From Nitrospiraceae bacterium (GTDB lineage Bacteria > Nitrospirota > Thermodesulfovibrionia > UBA6902), in assembly GCA_003599505.1 (NCBI GenBank), contig QZKO01000007.1, positions 1-37,084 of the forward strand: 37,084 nt of DNA, written 5' to 3'. Under the pieces are notes generated by a model. That model saw nothing but the letters and a program-made list of their open reading frames with translations. It ran no database searches and had not been told where the DNA came from. Of the stretch, positions 644-30,406 are shown piece by piece. A program made the translations under genes and the position numbers. The stretch's first letter is position 1, and every line of letters starts with the position of its first letter.

Positions 644-1627
644 ATGCCAAACATTCTCGAACAATCGATAAAAATAAGAAGGATATGGGGGGCTTTCAGG
701 CAGGCAAGGGTGCTTCTTACCGCGAATAACTACAGGGTATTTGACTATCTGGAAAAACCGATATCCGCAGAAGCAGTCGCGAAAAAATCAAATACGGATT
801 TCAGGGCCACTACAATCCTGCTCGATGCGCTGACAGGTCTTGGTTTTATTAAAAAACAGAGTGATAAATATCTGAACACAAATCTTGCTTCCCGATTTCT
901 TGTCTCCGGAAGTCCGCATTATCAGGGTAACATAATCAGGCATGCTGAGACCTTGTGGCAGAACTGGTCAGGGCTTGATGATGCCATAAAAACAGGAAAA
1001 CCCTGTCGCAAGGCCCATGACCATGAGGCGTTTATTCTCGGCATGCACGATCTGGCGTCATTGAAAGCCGGAAAAGTTGTCAGGGCGATTGGGTTAAAAG
1101 GTGTTAAAACAGCGCTTGATCTCGGCGGAGGCCCCGGCACTTATTCAATCGAGATGGCAAAAAAGGGTGTGAAAGTAACGCTCTTTGACAGGCCGGAGAC
1201 TGTTGAAATCGCAAAAAAGGTTGTTAGTAACGCCCCCCGACCCCCTCTTAAATTAAGAGGGGGAGAAGGGGGAGTTAATTTCCTCCAGGGGGATTTCATA
1301 AATGACAACATCGGTAACGGTTACGACCTGATTTTGGCCAGTCAGATATTACACGCAAATTCTGAAAAAGATAACCTCATGCTTTTGAAGAAATGCAAAA
1401 AGGCGCTGAATAAAAACGGCAGGACAGTCATTCAGGAATTCAAAATATCAACAGACCTGACACAGCCGGCAAACAGCGCTCTCTTTTCGGTGAACATGCT
1501 TGTCAACACTGAGGGCGGGAGATGTTATTCGCCTGAGGAAATGGAAGGCTGGCTGTTGAAGATCGGGATGAAAAAAATTAAAAAGAAGTCAATTGATGAT
1601 TCGGTGTTGATCAGCGCTGCAATATAA
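644..1627 (+). CDS. SAM-dependent O-methyltransferase (dimerisation + Methyltransf_2 type)
   Basis: About 327 residues. The N-terminal 100 residues form a winged-helix dimerisation domain (YRVFDYLEKPISAEAVA, then a TILLDALTGLGF helix). The C-terminal Rossmann domain carries SAM motif I DLGGGPGT at about 159-166 and acidic motif II at LFDRPETV. This layout matches small-molecule O-methyltransferases such as the hydroxyneurosporene/caffeate type; the substrate is unknown. I chose ATG 644 over the upstream in-frame start at 590 because the extra 18 residues are encoded by the palindromic repeat at 574-630 and GGGGTG lies just before 644. Residues of about 196-211 (APRPPLKLRGGEGG) are encoded by a second palindrome (1228-1277) and look like an in-frame insertion in a surface loop. 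Confidence 0.83.
   Translation: MPNILEQSIKIRRIWGAFRQARVLLTANNYRVFDYLEKPISAEAVAKKSNTDFRATTILLDALTGLGFIKKQSDKYLNTNLASRFLVSGSPHYQGNIIRHAETLWQNWSGLDDAIKTGKPCRKAHDHEAFILGMHDLASLKAGKVVRAIGLKGVKTALDLGGGPGTYSIEMAKKGVKVTLFDRPETVEIAKKVVSNAPRPPLKLRGGEGGVNFLQGDFINDNIGNGYDLILASQILHANSEKDNLMLLKKCKKALNKNGRTVIQEFKISTDLTQPANSALFSVNMLVNTEGGRCYSPEEMEGWLLKIGMKKIKKKSIDDSVLISAAI
1228..1277. repeat. Palindromic repeat inserted inside the methyltransferase gene
   Basis: The core is a perfect 11-base inverted repeat: CCCCCTCTTAA (1241-1251), a single A, then TTAAGAGGGGG (1253-1263). Outer arms TAACGCCCCC and GGGGGAGTTA are also inverted with one mismatch. The element keeps the frame open and adds about 16 residues of low-complexity Pro/Arg/Gly sequence. 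Confidence 0.85.
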
Positions 1628-1632
1628 AAGTG

Positions 1633-1672
1633 ATTAGTTGTCAGACTAACAGCTAATCACTAATAACTAATA
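1633..1672. repeat. Intergenic hairpin repeat (CTAATCA type)
   Basis: TGATTAGTTGT and ACAGCTAATCA form an imperfect hairpin (10 of 11 paired), followed by reiterated CTAATAACTAATA up to the dgt start. It fills the gap between the methyltransferase and the dGTPase gene. A similar element built on AGCTTA units lies at about 3467-3517. Confidence 0.65.
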
Positions 1673-2701
1673 ATGACCATACGTGAGCAGACAGAAGAGA
1701 TTGAAAGAAAAATCCTCCATCCGCGTGCATGCCTGAGCTCGGAAAGCAGGGGCAGGCTGAGGAAAGAGAAGGAAGACGACCTGCGGACATGCTTTCAGCG
1801 CGACAGGGACAGGATCATCCACTCAAAGGCCTTCAGGAGACTGAAGCACAAGACCCAGGTATTCCTTGCGCCAAAAGGAGACCACTACAGGACGAGGCTG
1901 ACCCATACGCTTGAGGTCTCGCAGATTGCAAGGACCATCGCCCGGGCGTTAAGGCTTAATGAAGACCTGACAGAGGCGATCTCGCTCGGTCACGATCTGG
2001 GACACACGCCGTTTGGTCATGCCGGAGAGGACATTTTGCGCGAGATTTATCCGGGAGGGTTTAAGCATTATGAGCAGAGCCTGCGGGTAGTGGACGTGCT
2101 CGAGAGAAACGGTCAGGGGTTGAATCTGACTCATGAAGTAAGGGAAGGTATCGTAAAGCATTCAAAAGGCAAGGGCGAAATCTTTTCTTCCCGCGTCCGC
2201 AGCGAAACTCTGGAGGGGCAGATCGTAAGGGTATCGGATGTGATCGCCTACGTTAACCATGATCTCGACGACTCTCTCCGCGCCGGCGTCCTTAAACGCT
2301 CAGGGCTGCCCATAGAGTTTTTCAAGGTCGGCGAGACGAACGCAAAAAGGATCGACGCGATGGTCAGAGATGTAATATCCGCTTCCACGACGACCGGCAT
2401 GAAGGAAGTTATCATGAGTGATTCCATGAAAGATATCACTTATTCCCTGAGAGATTTTCTCTATAAAAATGTATATGAAAGCGAAATCTCGAAGAAAGAA
2501 TTTAAAAAGGCGCGCAAGATACTTCTGGACCTTTATAATTACTATATAGAACATACCGACGAATTGTTTAAGGAATTCCCGAAGGAATCGGCAGAGAAAA
2601 AAAACAGGCTGGTCTGCGACTTTATTGCGGGGATGACGGACGGGTTTGCGCTCATTATGTATGAAAAGCTTTTCCTTCCCCAGCCCTGGGTGATATTATA
2701 A
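1673..2701 (+). CDS. dgt: Deoxyguanosinetriphosphate triphosphohydrolase-like protein (HD domain)
   Basis: A 342-residue HD-superfamily hydrolase expected to cleave dGTP (or other dNTPs) to the deoxynucleoside and triphosphate, controlling dNTP pools. Metal-ligand motifs are clear: RLTHTLEV (His78), [11 protein letters not shown] (HD at 107-108, further His at 111 and 116), and a later YVNHDLDD segment. The N-terminus ([24 protein letters not shown]) and the length fit the short dGTPase-like group found in most non-enteric bacteria. The start at 1673 matches the family's usual N-terminus, though the ribosome site is poor because the upstream bases belong to a repeat. True substrate specificity cannot be read from sequence. 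Confidence 0.93.
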
Positions 2702-2787
2702 TGGATTTTTGGGAGATGCCCCTGATTCAAATAATTCATTTGCATAAATTATCAGAATAAAATATAATTTTCAGTAACCTGTTTGCC

Positions 2788-2816
2788 TTGACAAGGGTGA
2801 TATCTCCTTTTATAAT
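2788..2816 (+). promoter_or_regulatory. Consensus sigma-70 promoter for the ihfA-like gene
   Basis: TTGACA (2788-2793) and TATAAT (2811-2816) are both perfect consensus hexamers separated by 17 bases. They lie 25 bases before the ATG of the IHF-alpha gene, whose ribosome site is AGGGGG. Transcription would begin near 2823, giving a very short leader. Confidence 0.9.
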
Positions 2817-2841
2817 TTAAGAAAATCTACAGGGGGTTATT

Positions 2842-3120
2842 ATGACAAAGGCGGATTTAGCTGACAAGCTGTACGAAAAGATCGGTCTTCCCAAAAAGGA
2901 AGCGACTGCGATTGTTGAGACTCTTTTTGAATCAATGAAAGGCATTCTGGCGGATGGCGAATCTTTAAAAATAACCGGATTCGGGACCTTCCTTGTAAGA
3001 AAAAAAGGTTCACGCAGGGGGAGAAACCCGAAAACAGGCACTGAACTCGAAATCGAGCAGAGACGTGTAGTAACCTTTAAACCCAGCTTACAGTTTAAAG
3101 ATCTTGTTGAAAAGGTATAA
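2842..3120 (+). CDS. ihfA: Integration host factor, alpha-type subunit (HU/IHF family)
   Basis: A 92-residue histone-like DNA-bending protein. The order is two N-terminal dimerisation helices (MTKADLADKLYEKIG, EATAIVETLFESMKG), the core strand GFGTFLVRKKG, the DNA-gripping arm with RNPKTG at its tip, and a C-terminal helix ending QFKDLVEKV. The N-terminus and RGRNPKTG arm fit IHF-alpha better than HU, but separating these paralogues by eye is uncertain. It has a perfect sigma-70 promoter and a MerR gene 6 bases downstream. The ihfA-merR-tRNA-Pro order resembles an arrangement known from deltaproteobacteria. Confidence 0.9.
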   Translation: MTKADLADKLYEKIGLPKKEATAIVETLFESMKGILADGESLKITGFGTFLVRKKGSRRGRNPKTGTELEIEQRRVVTFKPSLQFKDLVEKV

Positions 3121-3126
3121 TACCCC

Positions 3127-15291: not shown

Positions 15292-16209
15292 ATGCCCAAG
15301 CCGGTGAACGTTGCGTCCATTCCGCAGAGGAGCCCTTTTCGTTATCCCGGCGGTAAAACATGGTTTGTCCCGACATTCAGACACTGGATTACCGCCATAT
15401 ATCCCAAGCCCGATATCCTGATTGAGCCTTTTGCAGGGGGCGGGATCATCAGCCTGACTGCACTTTTCGAGAAGTTGGTTCAGAAAGTTGTTATGGTTGA
15501 ACTTGACGACGAGATAGCAGCAGTATGGAAATCAATAGTTAAAGGCGACGCTGAATGGCTCGCAAACCGCATTCTTAATTTTGAATTATCCAGGGAAGCT
15601 GTTATAAACGAACTTCAGAGAACTCCACACTCACATAAAGAAAAGGCATTTCAGACAATTCTCAAAAACCGCACATTTCACGGCGGGATTCTTGCTGAAG
15701 GCGCAGGGTTTCTCAAATACGGCGAAAATGGGAAGGGCATTCATTCACGCTGGTATCCTGCAACTATCGCCAAAAGACTTCTGAGTCTGGCTCACTTTAT
15801 TGAAAGGATCGATTTTCGCTGCGATAACGGCATGAAAGTGATGCAGGAATTCGCCGGCAGACATGATACAGTTTATTTTATAGACCCCCCATATACGGCT
15901 GGTGGAAAGAAAGCCGGGAAGCGTTTATATAAACATTATGACCTTGATCATGAAGAATTATTTTGTGTATGTGAAAAGTTGAAGGGCGATTTTCTAATGA
16001 CATATGATAATGCTGAAGAAGTTAAAAAGATGGCCCGGAGTCATGGTTTTCAGATGCGGCTGATACCGATGAATAACACTCATCATGCGACAATGGAAGA
16101 ATTGGTCATCGGCAAAGATTTGTCATGGATGGACGGGTTCCCGGCAGTGCATGAGCCTGAAGCGGAGTATTCAGTTCGGAATATGAAGAAAAGAAAGTCC
16201 AGGAAATGA
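15292..16209 (+). CDS. DNA adenine-N6 methyltransferase, D12 (Dam-like) class
   Basis: 305 residues. Motif X/SAM pocket FRYPGGKTWF lies at about 16-25, motif I IEPFAGGGIISL at 44-55, and catalytic motif IV DPPY at 198-201. The order is that of alpha-class D12 enzymes (Dam, DpnM). It methylates adenine in a specific sequence that cannot be read here. The start lacks its own ribosome site and is probably reached by coupling from the 24-codon ORF. No intact restriction enzyme is visible, so it is an orphan or the remainder of a restriction-modification system. It lies at the left edge of the AT-rich accessory island. Confidence 0.9.
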   Translation: MPKPVNVASIPQRSPFRYPGGKTWFVPTFRHWITAIYPKPDILIEPFAGGGIISLTALFEKLVQKVVMVELDDEIAAVWKSIVKGDAEWLANRILNFELSREAVINELQRTPHSHKEKAFQTILKNRTFHGGILAEGAGFLKYGENGKGIHSRWYPATIAKRLLSLAHFIERIDFRCDNGMKVMQEFAGRHDTVYFIDPPYTAGGKKAGKRLYKHYDLDHEELFCVCEKLKGDFLMTYDNAEEVKKMARSHGFQMRLIPMNNTHHATMEELVIGKDLSWMDGFPAVHEPEAEYSVRNMKKRKSRK

Positions 16210-16500
16210 TCCCGCTCGTTATAATTTTCGTGATAACACTCCATGATTTTCTTCTTACCGGAAATTTTCTTGCCTTTTCGTAAGGCGCTGATTATTATAA
16301 GACATCTCACAAACGGTCGCTGTTAATCTTCTTTATATGAGGGTAATGGGAGTAAGATCAGCGGTTGATTCTCAAGCGTTTCAAATTTAATAATCATTAT
16401 GGAAACTATGCGGCAGCAGAAATTATTGAGTTGTACAGGAGTATATGTATCAAATATTAACCGTTGCAGTTGATTATTTGTTAGGAGCAAGATAAGCAAA
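16210..16500. other. AT-rich spacer ending in a cassette-like boundary
   Basis: No gene is seen. The last part (16434-16488) holds a 44-base element shared with the region upstream of the 18102 gene (33 of 44 identical, no gaps). It is followed by G|TTAGGAGC, which is the inverted copy of the sequence after the next gene. Confidence 0.6.
16434..16488 (+). repeat. attC-like right half / cassette left boundary 1
   Basis: TACAGGAG...ATCAAATATTAAC...GATTAT (16434-16477) is followed by G|TTAGGAGC (G at 16480). The last nine bases GTTAGGAGC are the exact reverse complement of GCTCCTAAC at 17182-17190, just after the gene at 16501. This cassette-specific pairing across a gene is what integron cassettes show, because TTRRRY at the left end derives from the cassette's own attC. 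Confidence 0.5.
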
Positions 16501-17172
16501 ATGATTGACTACACTAATGAACTTTCAAATAACATTGTAGATAGCATAATTGAATCATCTTCTGTAGAATTAACTGCTGAAATTACTGAGTTTTCGATTG
16601 ACAAGTTACTCGATGATAGTTTATTCAAAGAAATACCTTGGGTAGGTTGGATATTTAAAGCAAAAAATATTTATACAACTTTATCAGACAGAATATTATT
16701 ATCCAAAATTATTAGATTCCTGATATCATTGGATGATATTCCAGAAGAAAAGAAAAAGGAATTTCGAACTAAATTAGAGAGCGATAAGAAATTTAAGGAG
16801 AGAGCCGGGTCAACCCTATTTGTGCTAATCGATAAATTAGATGACTTAGAAAAGCCCAGAATGCTTTCAAAAATATTTTCATATTATTTAAAGGGCTACA
16901 TTTCATTCTCTGATTTTCATAAGTTGTCTGATTCGGTATCATTAGCATTCATTGGGGATCTGAAAGACTTGGTAAGCATGGGAAGTGTAAATCCTACTCA
17001 AAAATTGGATTTAGAGAGTTTATATAGAAGCGGATTAAGTCAGATACAACGTCATAATTATATCGAAACAAGGATAGGCCATTCTGAATTAAATATTGGA
17101 TTTGAAGTATCGAGTCTTGGGGGATTATTTGTTCAGATTTTAAATGACAGCTTAAAGGAGCCAAAGCAATAA
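16501..17172 (+). CDS. Orphan cassette protein, unknown function
   Basis: A 223-residue, probably soluble protein, visibly AT-rich compared with its surroundings. I do not recognise a family. A helical N-terminus precedes a short hydrophobic segment (FKEIPWVGWIFKA), which might be amphipathic or membrane-associating. A charged helical middle (EEKKKEFRTKLESDKKFKERAG) and a mixed C-terminus follow. The ribosome site TAGGAGC overlaps the left cassette boundary, about 12 bases before ATG. Nine bases after the stop begins GCTCCTAACAACTGCA. Single gene, same strand, AT-rich and bounded by complementary core sites: it behaves like a captured gene cassette, possibly defence-related. Confidence 0.72.
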   Translation: MIDYTNELSNNIVDSIIESSSVELTAEITEFSIDKLLDDSLFKEIPWVGWIFKAKNIYTTLSDRILLSKIIRFLISLDDIPEEKKKEFRTKLESDKKFKERAGSTLFVLIDKLDDLEKPRMLSKIFSYYLKGYISFSDFHKLSDSVSLAFIGDLKDLVSMGSVNPTQKLDLESLYRSGLSQIQRHNYIETRIGHSELNIGFEVSSLGGLFVQILNDSLKEPKQ

Positions 17173-17338
17173 AACAAATTAGCTCCTAACAACTGCAATT
17201 GAACGAGTGCCACAATACACTTTTTCAGCTTATATTGTAATGAGGGATGCAAATTAATTTCAGGCATTTGATTATCTTAGATGGCACGTCACTCAGCTTT
17301 GCTACGTGCAGAATTCAATCGATTGATCAATAATAATT
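17173..17338 (+). repeat. attC-like site between the first and second cassette genes
   Basis: The left core GCTCCTAAC at 17182-17190 is followed by AACTGCAATTGAACG. About 100 bases later comes a right half CAGGCATTTGATTATC|TTAGATGGC (17261-17285) that shares GCANTTGATTAT with the boundary at 16434-16488. The spacing fits a full attC of about 100 bases, but G of GTT is C here and the inner arms pair poorly, so the site looks decayed. The remaining 50 bases before the next gene hold nothing I recognise. Confidence 0.42.
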
Positions 17339-17743
17339 ATGCTTAATAAAGTCGAGTATAAAAATCTAAATTCTAAACAAAAAGAAAATTACAACTTTTA
17401 TAAGTTGTCTGGCGTACTTGCTGATTATGGTTATTCTTCTATGTGGCTCAATGACGATTGGCAAGGTGCAGACTTTATTGCCACTCACATTAATGGTGAA
17501 ACTTATTTAAGGGTGCAGCTAAAAGGCAGGCTTACAATTGATAAAAAGTATTGCGAGAAAAATATTCATATAGCCTTTCGCGATGACAATGACTGGTACT
17601 TATACCCTCATGATGAACTTATGAATAAGTTGATAGAAAAGTCCTATTTGGCTGGTTGTGCTTCGTGGGATGATAAAGGCGGGTATAGCTGGCCAAACAT
17701 ACCAAAAAAAATCAAAGACATTATTTCTATATATAAATTATGA
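17339..17743 (+). CDS. Small protein with a possible PD-(D/E)XK nuclease-like core
   Basis: 134 residues, AT-rich. The pattern ADYGYSSMWLNDDWQGADFIATH, then TYLRVQLKGRLTIDKKY, resembles the core of PD-(D/E)XK proteins: an acidic residue in GADF, then a strand with Q-x-K (QLKGR) replacing E-x-K. The latter part (DDNDWYLYPHDELMNKLIE) has the beta-alpha look of the same fold. There is no clear ribosome site before ATG. Its left boundary TTAGATGGC at 17277 is visible, but no matching right boundary remains. The function is unknown; a nuclease or restriction-linked role is inference. Confidence 0.65.
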   Translation: MLNKVEYKNLNSKQKENYNFYKLSGVLADYGYSSMWLNDDWQGADFIATHINGETYLRVQLKGRLTIDKKYCEKNIHIAFRDDNDWYLYPHDELMNKLIEKSYLAGCASWDDKGGYSWPNIPKKIKDIISIYKL

Positions 17744-17928
17744 ACTGTTTAAAGCACATAGTTTTGTAAGGCTTCCGGTTGTCAAGGGCAATAATAACCC
17801 GTAATGGATTTTCGGAGAAAATCCGTCAAGTGAAGCGATACGAATAATAACAGGTCCTGACTTAGTTTCAAATCAACTGGCAACAGATCATATTCGGGTC
17901 GAAAGACAGAGGTCGTGCGTATAAACAA

Positions 17929-17983
17929 TGGGGTCGCGTCTACACTTTTTATATGTTTTGTGAATTGTGCAGACGCGACCCCA
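17929..17983. repeat. REP-like palindrome (TGGGGTCGCGTCTRCAC)
   Basis: The arms TGGGGTCGCGTCTACAC (17929-17945) and GTGCAGACGCGACCCCA (17967-17983) pair at 16 of 17 positions around a 21-base AT-rich loop. A GGGGTC-headed palindrome of this design resembles REP elements mobilised by single-strand (Y1/RAYT-type) transposases. No transposase gene is in the window. Confidence 0.75.
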
Positions 17984-18032
17984 GAGATGCAGACAAGGAC
18001 ACTTTCAAGCACTGACCCCTTTCTGTTCACTA

Positions 18033-18086
18033 TACAGGAGCGTAAAGATCAAATATTAACTACTGTAGGCGATTATCTTTATGTGT
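18033..18086 (+). repeat. attC-like right half / cassette left boundary 3
   Basis: TACAGGAG...ATCAAATATTAAC...GATTAT (18033-18076) matches 16434-16477 at 33 of 44 positions without gaps. It is followed by TTATGTGT (18079-18086), the exact reverse complement of ACACATAA at 18883-18890 at the end of the next gene. The base before TT is T, not the G expected for an active site. Confidence 0.48.
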
Positions 18087-18101
18087 AGATAATTTTCAGG
18101 C

Positions 18102-18890
18102 ATGCATATGGATGAGATTACAAAACTAAAAATGATATACGAGGAAGCATACAATTTCTTGAGAGATAAAGTTGATGAAGACATTCTCAAGAAGCATTTG
18201 GATTATTATCACAACTGCAACCCTAAATCAATTTGTGATGTATTCAGACAAATGGTTCAATCCCTAAAAAATAAACAGGGATATTCAAATTTCATAGCTG
18301 ATGTCGAACAGATGAGTGATATTTTGCAAGGCTATGACCCTCAGAAGGTTATCGTCAAATTTGGGAATAAATGGGAAGACTTATTTAAAGAATTCCAGAT
18401 AAGATATGGTAAGAACTACAAAATGGATATTGATAATAAAAGGAATGCATGGGTTATGTATAGCAAGGGAGTACTTTCTTGTGCATCTTTTTTATCGAAC
18501 TTTAAGACTATTGAACAATTTGATGAATTTGTAAGATCATTTTTCCTTAATGAGTTCACAATTGCTGCATTACCTATGCTCTTGGAAAAAGAAATATTTG
18601 GTTTTGGTTTCCCATTGGCGTGTGATTTCCTGAAAGAGCTTGGATATCGTCAGTATGGTAAACCGGATGTTCACCTGAAGGATATTTTCATAGCATTAAA
18701 TCTTGTTGAATCTGCTTCTGATTATGAGATTTTTAAGAAGATTGTAAAAATAGGGTTGATTGTTAAGCAAGACCCAGTAATTGTTGATAAAATATTTTGG
18801 CTGATTGGCTCTGGTAAGTTTCATATGAGTAACATATCTATAGGTAGCCACAAGTCAGAATTCATTGATTTCATAAGAAGCAACACATAA
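18102..18890 (+). CDS. Orphan cassette protein with a helix-hairpin-helix-like segment
   Basis: 262 residues, AT-rich, no signal or membrane segment. I do not recognise a named family. The C-terminal third contains GFGFPLACDFLKELGYRQYG followed by KPDVHLKDIF. This is like the helix-hairpin-helix and following KPD/VH segment of HhH-GPD DNA glycosylases, though the catalytic Lys/Asp pair cannot be assigned. The N-terminal half is helical and charged. ATG 18102 and ATG 18108 are both possible. The stop codon lies inside the right core site ACACATAAC, as often seen in integron cassettes. The function is unknown; DNA binding is inference. Confidence 0.68.
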   Translation: MHMDEITKLKMIYEEAYNFLRDKVDEDILKKHLDYYHNCNPKSICDVFRQMVQSLKNKQGYSNFIADVEQMSDILQGYDPQKVIVKFGNKWEDLFKEFQIRYGKNYKMDIDNKRNAWVMYSKGVLSCASFLSNFKTIEQFDEFVRSFFLNEFTIAALPMLLEKEIFGFGFPLACDFLKELGYRQYGKPDVHLKDIFIALNLVESASDYEIFKKIVKIGLIVKQDPVIVDKIFWLIGSGKFHMSNISIGSHKSEFIDFIRSNT

Positions 18891-19157
18891 CAACTGCACA
18901 TGCCGAAAAACAAAATGACAACAAAAAAGAAATTTCAACAAGCTGGACATTATGAAATCCACGGGGAAACTATTGCTAAATTCGAATTTTCTGAAAATTT
19001 CTTTTAAATGGGGACACATCCCGTATTTCTCGTTATTGAGAATATCTTGGGAATAGAAAATAAGGGATGTGTCCCTAATATTTACCTAATATTTACTAAT
19101 ATTTAATATTTAGTTTAAAGACTTTTCTGTGAGCGCAGCAAAAAAGCGCGGCGGCCC
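18891..19157. other. Spacer after the cassette region: attC-like left end, palindrome and AT tandem repeat
   Basis: It begins with CAACTGCACATGCC, the same CAACTGCA seen after the 16501 gene. It contains a palindrome (19011-19075) and a tandem AT repeat built on CTAATATTTA (about 19075-19112). No gene is seen. It ends at the convergent ClC gene. Confidence 0.6.
19011..19075. repeat. REP-like palindrome (GGGACACATCCC type)
   Basis: GGGACACATCCC (19011-19022) and GGGATGTGTCCC (19064-19075) are perfect inverted copies. The pairing extends inward through GTATTTCT against AGAAAATAA. It resembles the GGGACA-headed repeats associated with REP-type transposition. It marks the right edge of the accessory island. 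Confidence 0.75.
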
Positions 19158-26213: not shown

Positions 26214-27116
26214 TTAAAACCCGTATCCTTTCTGTTCGGGCTCTTCAAGGACGTCGATATCCGTCTGAACTGCCCTTACAGCGCCATTATGTTTGAATTC
26301 CGCAAAGACGCGGTGTTTGCCGGGCTTCATGAAGACTATGCTTACCGCGATTTGCCCATCCACGTTCTGTCTTGAACCGGCGCAGATAAATTCTTTACGC
26401 GATTTGTCCCATGATGTGATCAAAATGTCGACACCGTCTGTTTTCTCGGGATACTCAACCGGTACTCCATTATGGCTTATTTCATAGAGGAAGGTTACAA
26501 CGTGCTCGGCATAGACCTTTTCGGGAAAAAGTTTGACATTTACGGAATAGATACCCTCCTCGTCCCCCTTTGGCAAGGGGGGAATTAAAGAGGGGTCTTG
26601 CTTGACGCTTTCTTTTATTGAAATATCCTTGCGCAGGTTTATCCAGCCGTCTTCAGCGCTTTTAAAAACAAACTCGAACCTGTATTTGCCATGTGAAGGG
26701 ACATTGAAAACAAATCTGTGCTTACCGTTCCCGCTCTCCGGGCGAAGATGCCTGAATACATTCAGACCGTTATCCGTGATAAAGACATGCACGTCACTGA
26801 TGGTTTTCGGGACCTTTGTTTTTATGCTGAATGTAAATTCCGAATCATTGCCCGCGATCAGGGTCCCATACTCCATCCGCAAGTCATAACCCCGGGTGCT
26901 CCCTGATTTCTTCCATTTGTACGGCTCCGCGTCATGGGTGTCGGGGATGACCAGCACGTCCTGCTCAAGGTCAAGCTGCGCAAATAACAAAGACGGGATT
27001 ATGACCGGTAATATTAAAAAAATAACCACGGAGGCACAGAGGCACAGAGGAAATTGAAGATTGTAAATTGAAGATTGTAAATTTAAAATTTGAAATTTAC
27101 AATTTGCATTTTTCAT
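26214..27116 (-). CDS. Exported beta-sandwich protein of the redox cluster, unknown function
   Basis: Up to 300 residues. The hydrophobic signal segment is VVIFLILPVIIPSLLFAQ, with cleavage after FAQ likely. The first 30 residues (MKNANCKFQILNLQSS...) are encoded by a tandem repeat, so the native start is uncertain; a GTG at the VV before IFLILP is an option. The mature part seems to hold two Ig/YtkA-like beta domains (SEFTFSIKTKVPKTISDVHVFI; YAEHVVTFLYEISHNGVPVE). The join carries a repeat-derived stretch (DPSLIPPLPKGDEEG). There are no heme or iron-sulfur motifs. It follows the NapH-like gene by 28 bases, whose N-terminus has a similar beta domain, so the two may work together in the periplasm. 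Confidence 0.7.
   Translation of the reverse strand: MKNANCKFQILNLQSSIYNLQFPLCLCASVVIFLILPVIIPSLLFAQLDLEQDVLVIPDTHDAEPYKWKKSGSTRGYDLRMEYGTLIAGNDSEFTFSIKTKVPKTISDVHVFITDNGLNVFRHLRPESGNGKHRFVFNVPSHGKYRFEFVFKSAEDGWINLRKDISIKESVKQDPSLIPPLPKGDEEGIYSVNVKLFPEKVYAEHVVTFLYEISHNGVPVEYPEKTDGVDILITSWDKSRKEFICAGSRQNVDGQIAVSIVFMKPGKHRVFAEFKHNGAVRAVQTDIDVLEEPEQKGYGF
26552..26597. repeat. Palindromic repeat inserted in the exported-protein gene
   Basis: CCCCCTT (26564-26570), TGGC, AAGGGGG (26575-26581) with further outer CCCTCCTC/GAGGGGT pairing. It is read in frame as DPSLIPPLPKGDEEG, a typical translation of this class of palindromes. Confidence 0.75.
27028..27116. repeat. Tandem CACAGAGG / ATTGAAGATTGTAA repeat overlapping a gene start
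   Basis: Two copies of GGCACAGA are followed by two copies of ATTGAAGATTGTAA and a TTTAAAATTTGAAATTT stretch. On the minus strand it supplies the apparent first 30 codons of the exported protein. Confidence 0.75.
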
Positions 27117-27144
27117 TTTTTCCCTCCGTCTCCCTTGCCACTAT

Positions 27145-29265
27145 CTAATGCCCGTGCCTCGCCGACATGGGCTGGCCGAGAATGAATACATTGACAATCA
27201 TAAGAATGACCGCAAGCGCCGCCATAGGCAAAAACGCCTTCAAAGCCTTCTCATTGTAATACCTCACTGCTATCCTGTAACCGGCATAGAGAGAAAAAAT
27301 GTTCAGCACAATAAACGTCGCCATCTGAAGCCAGAATATGGATTCATCTCCCATGAGCGGCGTTACGCTCCAGTCGGGCTCGCCCAGGTCCAGGCCGGCA
27401 TACTCATTCAGAGTTCGCTGAACAGCAGGCACGATTTGCGGGCCTTCCTTGAAAAGATGGCTGATGTTGTGCGCGAGGTGCATTGAAAGTCCGACAGGGA
27501 TAAACATATACGCAAACTGCACGAATGTTTCCCTGAAGCGCAGGGGCGGATCAGGCCTTGTGATTCTTCTTACGATCAACGCGGCTACGGCAAGAATTAA
27601 TGAGGGGAGCAAAAGTGAACCTATTGTCAGCGCGGTCAACGAGGTTATCTTTTCTATGCTCGTGTGTGATACGATGCCCAGGGCTTTAAAAAGGACCAAT
27701 GCGCTTACCGCGTCAAGCCACCTGTGCCAGGGCTCCACCATTTCACCTGTAAGGATAATGGTTATCCCCACAAGCGTCATCGCGAGATAGGCTTCATCCA
27801 TGTAGCCCTTCGCGGCAAACCACAGGTCTTTCGCGAAGCTGCGAAACCTGATAACGATGTTGTCCTGCGAACATGACTTTATGCATTCGCTGCAGAAATT
27901 ACAGTAATTGTTTCTGTCGAGCGTCATAGGCGTCTGAAACATGGGGCACGGATAGCTGTGTTCCGTCCCTTTGATACATTCCCTGATCTTGTGCCGCCTG
28001 CACACGTCAAGACATTTGTTCCTGAGCTCTACGGGACTGAACATTGAATAGATTCCAATCAGTCCTCCTATGGGACATACATACCGGCAAAACGACCTCC
28101 CTTTAAAGACAACCGCGACGCCGACGGCCGCGACGAAGAGGCCCAGAAGGACGTAAGCCGTAAGAGCCGGTTTGTTCACGATGCCGCTGTAACTGTCCCA
28201 CCAGGTAAGACCGAAGAACAGGAAACTGGACAGCCAGACATTTCTTACGGGCTTCGGAAAGTCTTTATTGAAAGTGAATACCCTCTGTATCCAGTCCTGC
28301 AGCGCGCCGTAAGGGCACATCATGCACCATATCCTGCCGAAAAATACAAAGGTGAAAATGATCCCGGCCCACCAAACAGTCCACATCAGGAGTGTGGCGA
28401 TGTTCCTGTCTCCCATCTGGATGTCAAAAAGACCCGCCGCTATTATAACGATGAAAAAAACAAGCATGGGTATCTGGAATACAGGCTGAAACCACGCGGA
28501 CTTCAGGAAACGCTTCACAGAAGGGATGTCGAGGATATTCATCTTCTGCCCCTGGCTCATATTCAGGGCTTTTCGTTTTGAGAGTATCCATGCGCCTGCC
28601 AGTCCGCTGAAAAGAATTATCCCCATGATAAAGAGCATATTATACTGACGCGCCTTTGAAGCCTCTTTGTAAACAAACCTCCCGCCGTATACGAGAGGCT
28701 CTGCAAACGTCCTCCCGTCAAGAGATTTCAAAGCAATCGTGAACGCGTATTCCCCTTTATCCGGCAGCGGATAGCTTATCCCATATGTCCCTGCCTTCTG
28801 CTGTGGCTGAAGCTTTTTGAACATGCCGAGGTCGATTCCCATCGTCACCTGCGGGGAGTCGCCGAAATCGAGCCCCTCATCGCCGGTAATATTATCGGTT
28901 GACGGTCGGGGCATTGCGTGGCCTGCATGCTCTTGGATATCCTGCTTCCCTTTTCCCTCAAAGAGAATATAAATCTCCGCATCCAGCACAGGGTTTCCAG
29001 TCATGTAATTCGTCAATTCCAGTATGACATCCGGGGCTCTCCCTTTGACATAAGTCTCCGGGGTGATATTCATTTTTACATCGGCAGCATCGAGTCGGAA
29101 TTGAAGGGAAGAATGTGCGGATTCATGAGCTCCGGAAGCAAAAGCTGAAGTGACGGTCAACAGCACGCAGAATACGGACAGACATATCACGGTTAATTTA
29201 TGCCGAACCCCTCGGACCCTCGCCCCCCCGGCCCCTTGGCCCCTATTTTTTTCTGAACATTTCAT
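27145..29265 (-). CDS. NapH/NosR-like polyferredoxin membrane protein with periplasmic N-domain
   Basis: 706 residues. A signal segment (LTVICLSVFCVLLTVTSAFAS) is followed by a periplasmic beta domain of about 150 residues (VKMNITPETYVKGRAPDVILEL...). Several membrane helices and an iron-sulfur core come next: CMMCP at 314-318 and CRYVCP at 393-398 on the membrane side, a Cys group CLDVC...C...CP at 418-441, and the cluster motif CNFCSECIKSC at 455-465. More membrane helices follow. It should pass electrons across the inner membrane. Its start overlaps the FMN_bind-like gene by 23 bases. The first 20 residues (NRGQGAGGARVRGVR) are encoded by GC-rich repeat DNA, so the true start may lie downstream. 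Confidence 0.85.
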   Translation of the reverse strand: MKCSEKNRGQGAGGARVRGVRHKLTVICLSVFCVLLTVTSAFASGAHESAHSSLQFRLDAADVKMNITPETYVKGRAPDVILELTNYMTGNPVLDAEIYILFEGKGKQDIQEHAGHAMPRPSTDNITGDEGLDFGDSPQVTMGIDLGMFKKLQPQQKAGTYGISYPLPDKGEYAFTIALKSLDGRTFAEPLVYGGRFVYKEASKARQYNMLFIMGIILFSGLAGAWILSKRKALNMSQGQKMNILDIPSVKRFLKSAWFQPVFQIPMLVFFIVIIAAGLFDIQMGDRNIATLLMWTVWWAGIIFTFVFFGRIWCMMCPYGALQDWIQRVFTFNKDFPKPVRNVWLSSFLFFGLTWWDSYSGIVNKPALTAYVLLGLFVAAVGVAVVFKGRSFCRYVCPIGGLIGIYSMFSPVELRNKCLDVCRRHKIRECIKGTEHSYPCPMFQTPMTLDRNNYCNFCSECIKSCSQDNIVIRFRSFAKDLWFAAKGYMDEAYLAMTLVGITIILTGEMVEPWHRWLDAVSALVLFKALGIVSHTSIEKITSLTALTIGSLLLPSLILAVAALIVRRITRPDPPLRFRETFVQFAYMFIPVGLSMHLAHNISHLFKEGPQIVPAVQRTLNEYAGLDLGEPDWSVTPLMGDESIFWLQMATFIVLNIFSLYAGYRIAVRYYNEKALKAFLPMAALAVILMIVNVFILGQPMSARHGH
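29203..29244. repeat. GGGGCCAAGGGGCC-type repeat at the start of the polyferredoxin gene
   Basis: On the minus strand, GGGGCCAAGGGGCC and GCGAGGGTCCGAGGGG follow the FMN_bind-like stop directly. They encode the Gly/Arg-rich n-region of the next protein's signal peptide. The style is shared with the GGGGCAA tandem at 31375-31404. Confidence 0.65.
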
Positions 29266-29806
29266 TGATGATCAGCAGCCCCCTCTTTGCTCCTGAGGCT
29301 ATTGCCTGCGCGGACTTCCCTTCAAGAGCGGGGTACGAGATATCTTCACCTGTTATAAAAGGGTCGTCAGCCCTTTTCCCCTTGAACTGTTCAAGGAATG
29401 ACGATTGCCTTATGCTTTCCGTTTCATTGTTCTCAAATATCAGGATATTCTCAAGAACACCTTTGCCGCTTGCAACAACGCCCATCTCGATCTTTCCGCC
29501 TTTGCCGTACGCGTCGATGAACATTATGGCAGCCGCCTTTCTGGGAGGCGCGTCAGGACTGTTTCTTATTATTGCAAGATAAATTGAAGGCTGGAGGTCT
29601 TCTTCAGGGAGTTTGCTTCCAAGGGCATTTTCAATGTTTTTACGCTGTTCATCAGAGACATACAGATTTTTCTGCTCAAAACTTTCAGCCGCAGGGAACA
29701 AGGCCTTCAGCTTTTCACCGGGCCATACAAGGTCGTGCGCGCAAGATACTGACGCATCTATAATTATTATCAGGAATATGAGCGCAAGCGATTTGAGGAT
29801 ATCCAT
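29243..29806 (-). CDS. Exported FMN_bind-like protein
   Basis: 187 residues with a signal peptide (KSLALIFLIIIIDASVSCA). The mature part fits an FMN-binding (NqrC/NosR N-terminal type) domain: AAIMFIDAYGKGGKIEMGVVASGKGVLENILIFENNETE, then the segment ISYPALEGKSAQAIASGAKRGL. The usual flavin-attachment motif S-G-A-T-x-T/S is not exact: SGAK stands where SGAT is expected, so covalent FMN is doubtful. It is followed by the polyferredoxin gene with overlap. Together they resemble a NosR-like protein divided in two. The ribosome site is weak. Confidence 0.7.
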   Translation of the reverse strand: MDILKSLALIFLIIIIDASVSCAHDLVWPGEKLKALFPAAESFEQKNLYVSDEQRKNIENALGSKLPEEDLQPSIYLAIIRNSPDAPPRKAAAIMFIDAYGKGGKIEMGVVASGKGVLENILIFENNETESIRQSSFLEQFKGKRADDPFITGEDISYPALEGKSAQAIASGAKRGLLIINEMFRKK

Positions 29807-29865
29807 ACATATATGATAAAGAAAGTATTTGAATATTTTGTGAATTCTGATCAGCCTTGCCTGGG

Positions 29866-30285
29866 TTATTTCATATTAACCTGTTTAAGCGCTTCACTGT
29901 GCAGTTTCTCGACTTCCTCAATGACATGGATCATCCTGTCCCCCAACGCGTGCAAATCACGCATCACCTTCTCATTAAATCCGCCTTCTTTATGCAAGAC
30001 TTTCATGTCGCTGCCGGCAAGCGTTTTGAGGATAGTTGCCTTGCCGTCTTTAACCATATCCGAACCGCGCTCAATTAAATCTTTGTCTGTTTCCCCGGAC
30101 TCCCCCATTTGACCGAACATCTGGAGGTTCGCGCCTTCAAGCGCCTGACAGAGGGCGCTGTCCATCAAACGCATCATCGCGTGCATCTCGTGCAGAGGCT
30201 GCCCTTTCTCCATCTGCTCAGCCTGCGCATTGACAGAGAGAATAAACACAATTGGAAAGACTAATGCTGCCGTGACCGTTTTCAT
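29866..30285 (-). CDS. Small periplasmic helical protein, unknown function
   Basis: 139 residues. The signal peptide MKTVTAALVFPIVFILSVNAQA has a clean AQA-E cleavage site. The mature part is helical and rich in His and Met (LHEMHAMMRLMDSAL, LHKEGGFNEKVMRDLHALGDRMIHVIEEVEKLHSE), with one Cys and no CXXCH. The His/Met content and four-helix pattern could suit metal or redox chemistry, but that is inference. GGGGGAG lies before ATG. It is the first gene of the minus-strand redox cluster, 59 bases before the FMN_bind-like gene. Confidence 0.72.
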   Translation of the reverse strand: MKTVTAALVFPIVFILSVNAQAEQMEKGQPLHEMHAMMRLMDSALCQALEGANLQMFGQMGESGETDKDLIERGSDMVKDGKATILKTLAGSDMKVLHKEGGFNEKVMRDLHALGDRMIHVIEEVEKLHSEALKQVNMK

Positions 30286-30406
30286 CTTAGCTCCCCCTTT
30301 TCACCAGGATAAAATTATTATCTCACCTTCTTTCTTCTACGTCAACGACCTCGCGGCTTTGTGATATGATGTATTGTGTAAAATTATAAATCAGGGCACA
30401 TATGTC

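Follow-up and report, generated by a model that had tools for sequence, protein, structure and literature searches.

We analysed a 37,084-nucleotide stretch of contig QZKO01000007.1 from the Nitrospiraceae bacterium assembly GCA_003599505.1 (the window), in which four open reading frames (ORFs), here named D, C, B, and A, lie on the minus strand in the same direction and with short gaps between them; the coordinates of these genes and of their motifs all refer to that strand. D (29866..30285) encodes an exported, helical protein of 139 residues that contains His and Met and is the first gene of a likely operon. C (29243..29806) encodes an exported protein of 187 residues with an RnfG/NqrC-type (FMN_bind-like) fold that lacks the flavinylation motif, and it overlaps B by 23 bases. 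B (27145..29265) encodes a membrane polyferredoxin of 706 residues made up of an N-terminal periplasmic domain, a Fer4_5 core, and C-terminal helices, while A (26214..27116) encodes an exported beta protein of 300 residues. The original prediction for this locus had drawn the overlapping pair of C and B correctly and had taken the genes for a NosR-like electron carrier divided over several genes. The set formed by C, B, and A probably assists in dealing with toxic metals on the outer side of the cell membrane and is unlikely to supply nitrous oxide reduction.

A search with B against 395 genomes of the phylum returned 32 genomes at an E value of 1e-10, and for the 13 closest homologues (that of the window's own genome included) C lies directly upstream and A directly downstream in every case. 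Strong profile matches in the 395 genomes, with E<1e-70 for C and E<1e-110 for A, all fall in those same 13 genomes, the one extra being a fragment of C in genome G387, where a contig ends. At an E value of 1e-5, C is matched in 150 genomes and A in 26, and all matches beyond the 13 genomes are far weaker. We then counted over 22 non-redundant loci with a close B, taken from the phylum genomes and from GTDB species genomes; the GTDB scan relied on two short patterns and so reached close relatives only, and 12 of its 20 close loci were dropped before counting as duplicates of regions already taken. C is present in 20 of the 22 loci (absent from L043 and L079, and with the contig of L064 beginning within C) and A in 19 (absent from L043 and L061, and with L079 stopping at the contig end), whereas gene order and spacing around the trio vary between loci. 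The co-occurrence across most of the 22 loci, together with the strong C and A matches in the same 13 genomes, makes C-B-A a real conserved unit, as the original prediction had expected of its genes. It had also counted both A and D as completing the group, which is right for A but not for D: D was found in three of the 22 loci; in the window and in L062 it stands directly upstream of C, and L032 has two copies of it about 8 kb off, among metal genes. Of 295 genomes searched in the phylum, 7 have matches to D, three of these only at E values above 1e-10, and D lies outside the conserved core.

C scores below threshold against the Pfam FMN_bind family (12.9 bits, with a cut-off of 22). An AlphaFold model built from 19 sequences has a mean predicted local distance difference test (pLDDT) score of 89.6, and its best matches in the PDB are RnfG and NqrC chains (for 9eri_G, Foldseek E value 2.6e-8, Z score 16.7, and root mean square deviation [rmsd] 4.8 over 169 aligned residues). 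Unrelated PDB entries appear from about Z 6, the exception being a periplasmic protein of Borrelia at 10.2, and a comparison of the C profile with PDB sequences gave RnfG as a weak best match (E value 0.024). By this model C has the RnfG/NqrC (FMN_bind) fold, which the original prediction had anticipated; neither of the two outcomes that it had named as refuting it, an unpredicted fold or genes not conserved together, came about.

The flavin site is a different matter. Weaker homologues of C in Nitrospira-type genomes carry SGAT or TGAT, and when the last 30 residues are aligned without gaps to such relatives (L143, L144, L146, L148, and L152) their Thr falls on residue 163 of the window's C, a position occupied by G, E, D, or V in the 19 C proteins. 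In this alignment the motif position of C, residues 160 to 163 (29318..29329), reads ALEG, and none of the 19 proteins retains S/TGAT. The SGAK sequence that had been proposed as the flavin site (residues 171 to 174, 29285..29296) was rejected as such, since SGAK/R stands 11 residues past the true attachment position and within the last helix (residues 163 to 183). With the attachment motif absent, C is not flavinylatable where NosR is; as judged from the sequences, covalent flavinylation at the usual place is excluded, and C may still bind flavin non-covalently. Several of the S/TGAT-bearing relatives adjoin ApbE-like ORFs, recognised by a MGTLVTIT-type stretch (this label, like ccm, DsbA-like, CcdA, and methylase-like below, was given by eye, with no family search), and in L149 a single frame (1315-2778) joins an ApbE-like part to an FMN_bind-like protein with SGAT. 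A different C-like protein without S/TGAT lies beside ABC-transporter genes in L145 (4209-4820) and in L147 (6467-7048), the latter with a P-type ATPase as well; here the flavin site may have been lost a second time.

By the -3/-1 rule, applied by eye, the predicted first mature residue of C is His24 (codon 29735..29737; mature start HDLVWP), a candidate copper ligand. His-Asp follows A, G, S, or T at position -1 of a plausible signal-peptidase site in 19 of 19 C proteins and also in a second copy of the trio in genome G113, and the flavinylated-type relatives lack it. There is no second invariant His in C, but Trp28 is nearly invariant and several acidic residues (Asp/Glu) are invariant; the model is unreliable at residues 21 to 27 (pLDDT under 50). 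A His that follows the signal peptide and so becomes N-terminal is an established signature of metal binding (PMC12537917), and in YcnI of Bacillus subtilis Cu(II) is bound by the N-terminal His, a Glu, and a nearby Trp (PMC8424229). The N-terminal His-Asp of C is a possible copper site.

B matches Pfam Fer4_5 (PF12801) with 54.8 bits against a cut-off of 22, and the polyferredoxin motifs announced in the original prediction are present: CMMCP (residues 314 to 318, 28312..28326), CRYVCP (residues 393 to 398, 28072..28089), and the [4Fe-4S] motif CNFCSECIKSC (residues 455 to 465, 27871..27903). Across 14 diverse members of the B group 11 Cys are invariant, namely those of the three motifs together with C422, C430, and C440. 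Toward the C terminus, the HLAHNISH cluster (H596, H599, and H603; 27457..27480) is invariant in 21 close homologues, and in the terminal MSARHGH (27148..27168), an MxxRHxH motif, M700, H704, and H706 are invariant in 21 of 21. Both elements are common to DOMON-type homologues and missing in cupredoxin-type ones.

From these genomes we placed 44 polyferredoxin cores in a tree, rooted at the midpoint and with several long branches, after dropping X_G154a, which is without the motif pair. B groups weakly (80/72) with the B-like proteins of G393 and G273, and at the next step (96/93) this clade joins Chloroflexi, Deltaproteobacteria, and DOMON-fused homologues. A 100/99 split separates B from the NosZ-side polyferredoxins, the NapH proteins, and a CcoG-like protein on a very long branch. 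Against the NosR model B reaches 9.6 bits, with a cut-off of 1000, and the polyferredoxins of the superfamily that lie beside a NosZ-like gene reach about 263 bits with the C-terminal part of that model. B was rejected as a NosR on both counts, the score and its place on the opposite side of the split, and the claim that C and B are the two halves of NosR is not supported, in view also of the lost flavin motif and of the metal-efflux context in relatives. Some relatives of B are longer: the B-like cores of L024, L025, L026, and L028 lie in frames of about 910 to 940 residues, and in L024 and L025, the two that were typed, a sigma-54 activator match stands in front of the polyferredoxin core, so these long frames may be redox- or metal-sensing regulators. 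The B homologues of L046, L047, and L048 all carry about 230 extra residues, with one DOMON match, and lie beside ORFs that look ccm/TlpA-like or DsbA-like.

The additional periplasmic beta domain that had been noticed in B corresponds to about residues 49 to 202 (28660..29121). Only this N-terminal part of the AlphaFold model of B was used, and no geometry of the clusters or His residues was taken from it; the domain is modelled with modest local confidence, at pLDDT mostly 56 to 86 apart from one loop. Its top structural match is CrdA of Helicobacter pylori (9ll2_A, Z 12.1, rmsd 2.6, 105 aligned residues). The best 21 matches are CrdA, FetP, P19/FtrA, HftA, and Tp34 (Z 12.1 to 10.0), with unrelated proteins (DUF4426 and others) at Z 9.6 and lower. 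The modelled domain thus has a copper/silver-protein fold of the kind found in CrdA and P19/FetP/FtrA; no NosR, NapH, or CcoG chain occurs in the PDB lists for B, which is uninformative given the poor model of the rest of the protein. In a profile comparison the first half of A weakly resembles this domain over 43 residues, and no such similarity was found for the second half of A or for C. A and D gave nothing over the cut-off in Pfam and NCBIfam, nor did A in a search of PDB sequences. The 5' end of A (27026-27115) consists of a dispersed repeat, matched 19 times in the genome, so the start of A and part of its signal peptide are repeat-derived in this strain.

The neighbourhood of the trio in relatives is rich in metal-efflux genes, with families named by Pfam and NCBIfam on representatives (CusA/CzcA at 1113 bits, HlyD_D23, OEP, YtkA, HMBD plus E1-E2 ATPase, and CYCXC); the 'CopA' of L043 and an ATPase of 898 residues in the window were left out of the P1B count. 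Of the 22 loci, 13 have one or more of these genes within 12 kb: CusA, CusB, CusC, a P1B heavy-metal ATPase, or a YtkA of MPAMPGM type. CusA/CzcA-family matches number 35 in 12 of the 13 trio genomes, the window's own being the one without, and some of the matches are pieces of one gene. Such a gene lies less than 10 kb from a trio copy in 6 of the 13 genomes (in one through the second copy), compared to 0.29 expected at random, and none of 2,000,000 random placements reached 6, a figure that is only indicative because the genomes are related and not independent. CrdA itself belongs to the CrdAB-CzcBA copper efflux system of H. pylori, and the YtkA proteins near the trio have its MPGM Met motif (PMC9182242).

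A further neighbour is a small protein of the CYCXC family (NF041379 / PF13798), already described as a selenoprotein family (PMC13188914). Its gene lies within 12 kb of the trio in 8 of the 22 loci, and also beside the two closest B-like proteins that are without C and A; a PCYCGC-like protein adjoins the Chloroflexi homologue of B. In the CYCXC cluster, 7 of 9 members have UGA at the UxxC motif, all beside the trio: L033 (15097), L034 (8409), L035 (7728), L036 (11673), L037 (7555), L039 (12779), and L040 (12271). After the in-frame TGA come a conserved DIC and some 33 residues, and the two proteins beside B-like proteins (L044 and L045) have Cys at the UGA position.

Several known systems share parts of this arrangement. 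Split loci of NapH-like and FMN_bind proteins form a published type of 539 gene clusters (Meheust et al. 2021, PMC8238504), and they likewise have a Fer4_5 membrane protein and a separate exported protein of FMN_bind fold in one locus. Here, unlike there, C is without a flavinylation motif and below the Pfam cut-off, B bears a CrdA/P19-like domain, and A and metal-efflux genes accompany the pair; the word 'copper' is absent from the main text of that publication. With NosR our set shares the CxxCP/CxxxCP and [4Fe-4S] motifs of the membrane protein and an FMN_bind fold, but it is split, has neither a flavin site nor nosZ, and belongs to another clade. CcoG is a NapH-superfamily polyferredoxin with a periplasmic Ig-like domain and a characterised cupric reductase, the loss of which raises copper sensitivity (PMC7558416). 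The likeness of B to CcoG/FixG lies in the polyferredoxin, the Ig-like periplasmic domain, and the copper context, whereas the domain of B is N-terminal and CrdA/P19-like, its partners are C and A, and it does not match the CcoG model. As in CrdAB-CzcBA, a CrdA-type periplasmic domain occurs with a Cus/Czc RND pump, although here such a domain also forms part of a membrane protein for electron transfer, to which it is fused.

We propose that C-B-A is a cell-envelope metal-handling module for copper, perhaps also for silver or other soft metals, with an electron conduit whose likeliest reaction is Cu(II) to Cu(I), and we put the probability of this reading at roughly 40%. B would receive electrons from either the quinol pool or a donor in the cytoplasm and pass them across the membrane through its [4Fe-4S] clusters and the CxxCP/CxxxCP cysteines, as its family suggests. 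At the periplasmic face it would deliver them to metal held on its own CrdA/P19-like domain, on C, and on A. The product would most likely be Cu(I), the form carried by CusABC and P1B ATPases. We favour this reaction because CcoG carries it out, because the domain of B is CrdA-like, and because the exporters beside the trio, whose specificity we take from their families, are of the Cu(I)/Ag(I) type. C, a former flavoprotein to judge from the lost site, would now probably be a metal-binding or docking partner, and the CYCXC selenoprotein, where encoded beside the trio, may be a second redox partner. Metal reduction by C-B-A is a proposed function only, for which we infer the electron donor, the direction of transfer, the metal, and the product. 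A more specific version, which we consider distinctly unlikely, is that C is a flavoprotein subunit turned copper protein: it would have kept the RnfG fold, lost the flavin site, and come to bind Cu(II) at the N-terminal His-Asp in the manner of a mono-histidine brace, so that C and the CrdA-like domain of B would present Cu(II) to the polyferredoxin for reduction to Cu(I) and export by CusABC or a P1B ATPase.

A number of observations weigh against the proposed module, the two main warnings being the unlinked locus of the window and a short copy in G113. None of the metal genes listed above occurs in 9 of the 22 loci; seven of these have under 5 kb on one side, and the exceptions are L043 and the window, where a metal-efflux gene beside the trio was looked for and not found. 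The window's own genome has no CusA at an E value of 1e-100, and its three P1B ATPases lie away from the trio, so the metal link is an extrapolation from relatives in this organism; no CYCXC protein was found in it either. The second copy of the trio in G113 (L150, 9818-11909) has the order P1B ATPase, C, B', A, two ORFs, cytochrome c, CYCXC, CusC, CusB, and CusA, in which B' is a protein of 226 residues comprising the periplasmic domain and the first helix, with a clean stop that overlaps the start of A. A crude codon count gave no indication that B' is decaying faster than C or A. The periplasmic proteins can thus persist without the conduit, and reduction may not be the core function. B was also rejected as a CcoG, as it is not listed for the CcoG model TIGR02745 at E values up to 1 and stands apart from the CcoG-like protein in the tree. 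In the periplasmic domain of B, His47 is the sole invariant candidate copper ligand, the loops being variably rich in His and Met, and the full-length model of B is poor outside this domain (pLDDT 52.8).

The strongest rival, though in our view an unlikely one, is that B reduces the CYCXC (seleno)protein or some other thiol carrier of the periplasm and so keeps metal-binding thiols reduced, the metal itself not being the acceptor. It owes this rank to the B-like proteins without C and A and to the Chloroflexi homologue, all of which adjoin CYCXC- or PCYCGC-like proteins, and it draws as well on the CYCXC genes at the trio loci, on the UxxC motif, and on other distant homologues that lie beside TlpA/CcdA/DsbA-like genes. 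The CYCXC protein cannot, however, be an obligate partner of the unit, since it was not found in the window's own genome, G377, or G259 and is partial or weak in G209, G277, and G321. Distant homologues also have ccm/TlpA-like genes around them, or adjoin genes for cupredoxin and COX2-like proteins, which would suit an assembly factor for a cuproenzyme or a cytochrome, like CcoG or the ccm-linked relatives, that supplies reduced copper or reductant for maturation and not for export. The neighbours of the trio are exporters, with no recognisable oxidase or ccm genes, and we regard this explanation as improbable.

The NosR-like (or NapH-like) flavin carrier of the original prediction, in which electrons would pass from quinol through B and an FMN on C to a periplasmic reductase, has in its favour the RnfG/NqrC fold of C, the Fer4_5 core of B, and the published split loci. 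It is hardly probable, given that the attachment Thr is replaced in every C protein, that B lies outside the NosR/NapH half of the tree, that no reductase is recognised in the conserved neighbourhood, as the original prediction had noted for the window, and that no NosZ match occurs in the own genome. Two of the 13 trio genomes have, on other contigs, a NosZ-like gene of nearly full length that scores below the curated cut-off, and two more have only short weak matches. Ferrous-iron uptake of the FtrABCD/P19 type, in which a polyferredoxin and a P19-like protein act with an iron permease, would account for the P19/FtrA/FetP fold of the domain of B, which it shares with the P19/FtrABCD and FetMP systems. 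FtrD is presumably the polyferredoxin of that system. PMC11966278 assigns FtrD to no known redox protein family. This explanation is quite improbable too: no iron permease (FTR1-type) was recognised near the trio in the 22 loci by eye and by clustering, with no family search made, the domain is here fused to a polyferredoxin, CrdA is the protein closest to it in fold, and the genes linked to the trio belong to the Cu/Ag type.

Upstream of D lies a promoter-like site, TTGACG-17-GATAAT (30317..30345, minus strand), which is among the two best such sites on this strand by consensus match, though that match is no proof of a promoter; the region contains 12 promoter-like sites against a mean of 5.4 in shuffles. 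Elsewhere in the window, positions 16000-19000 have 33 to 36% G+C, compared to about 48% in the surroundings, and adjoin a DNA-methylase-like ORF (15292-16209); this stretch was probably acquired. In L092, one open frame (1156-3126) beside a NosZ-like gene matches the C-terminal half of NosR and, after it, NosD.

Split NapH-like and FMN_bind loci, the CYCXC selenoprotein, CrdA, P19, and CcoG have all been published, and for the CYCXC family only the linkage to the trio is new; no publication on this gene combination was found in the open-access literature. The means by which bacteria reduce copper outside the cytoplasm prior to Cu(I) export are poorly known, and a conserved polyferredoxin with a CrdA/P19-like domain, an RnfG-fold partner devoid of flavin, and Cus neighbours is a direct and testable candidate for such a reduction. 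If the more specific version, with C turned copper protein, is true, C-B-A would be a dedicated periplasmic cupric reductase module with a metal site in place of the flavin of NosR and Rnf-type systems. A protein annotated as FMN_bind-like need not carry a flavin, and the fold can be reused after the flavin has been lost.

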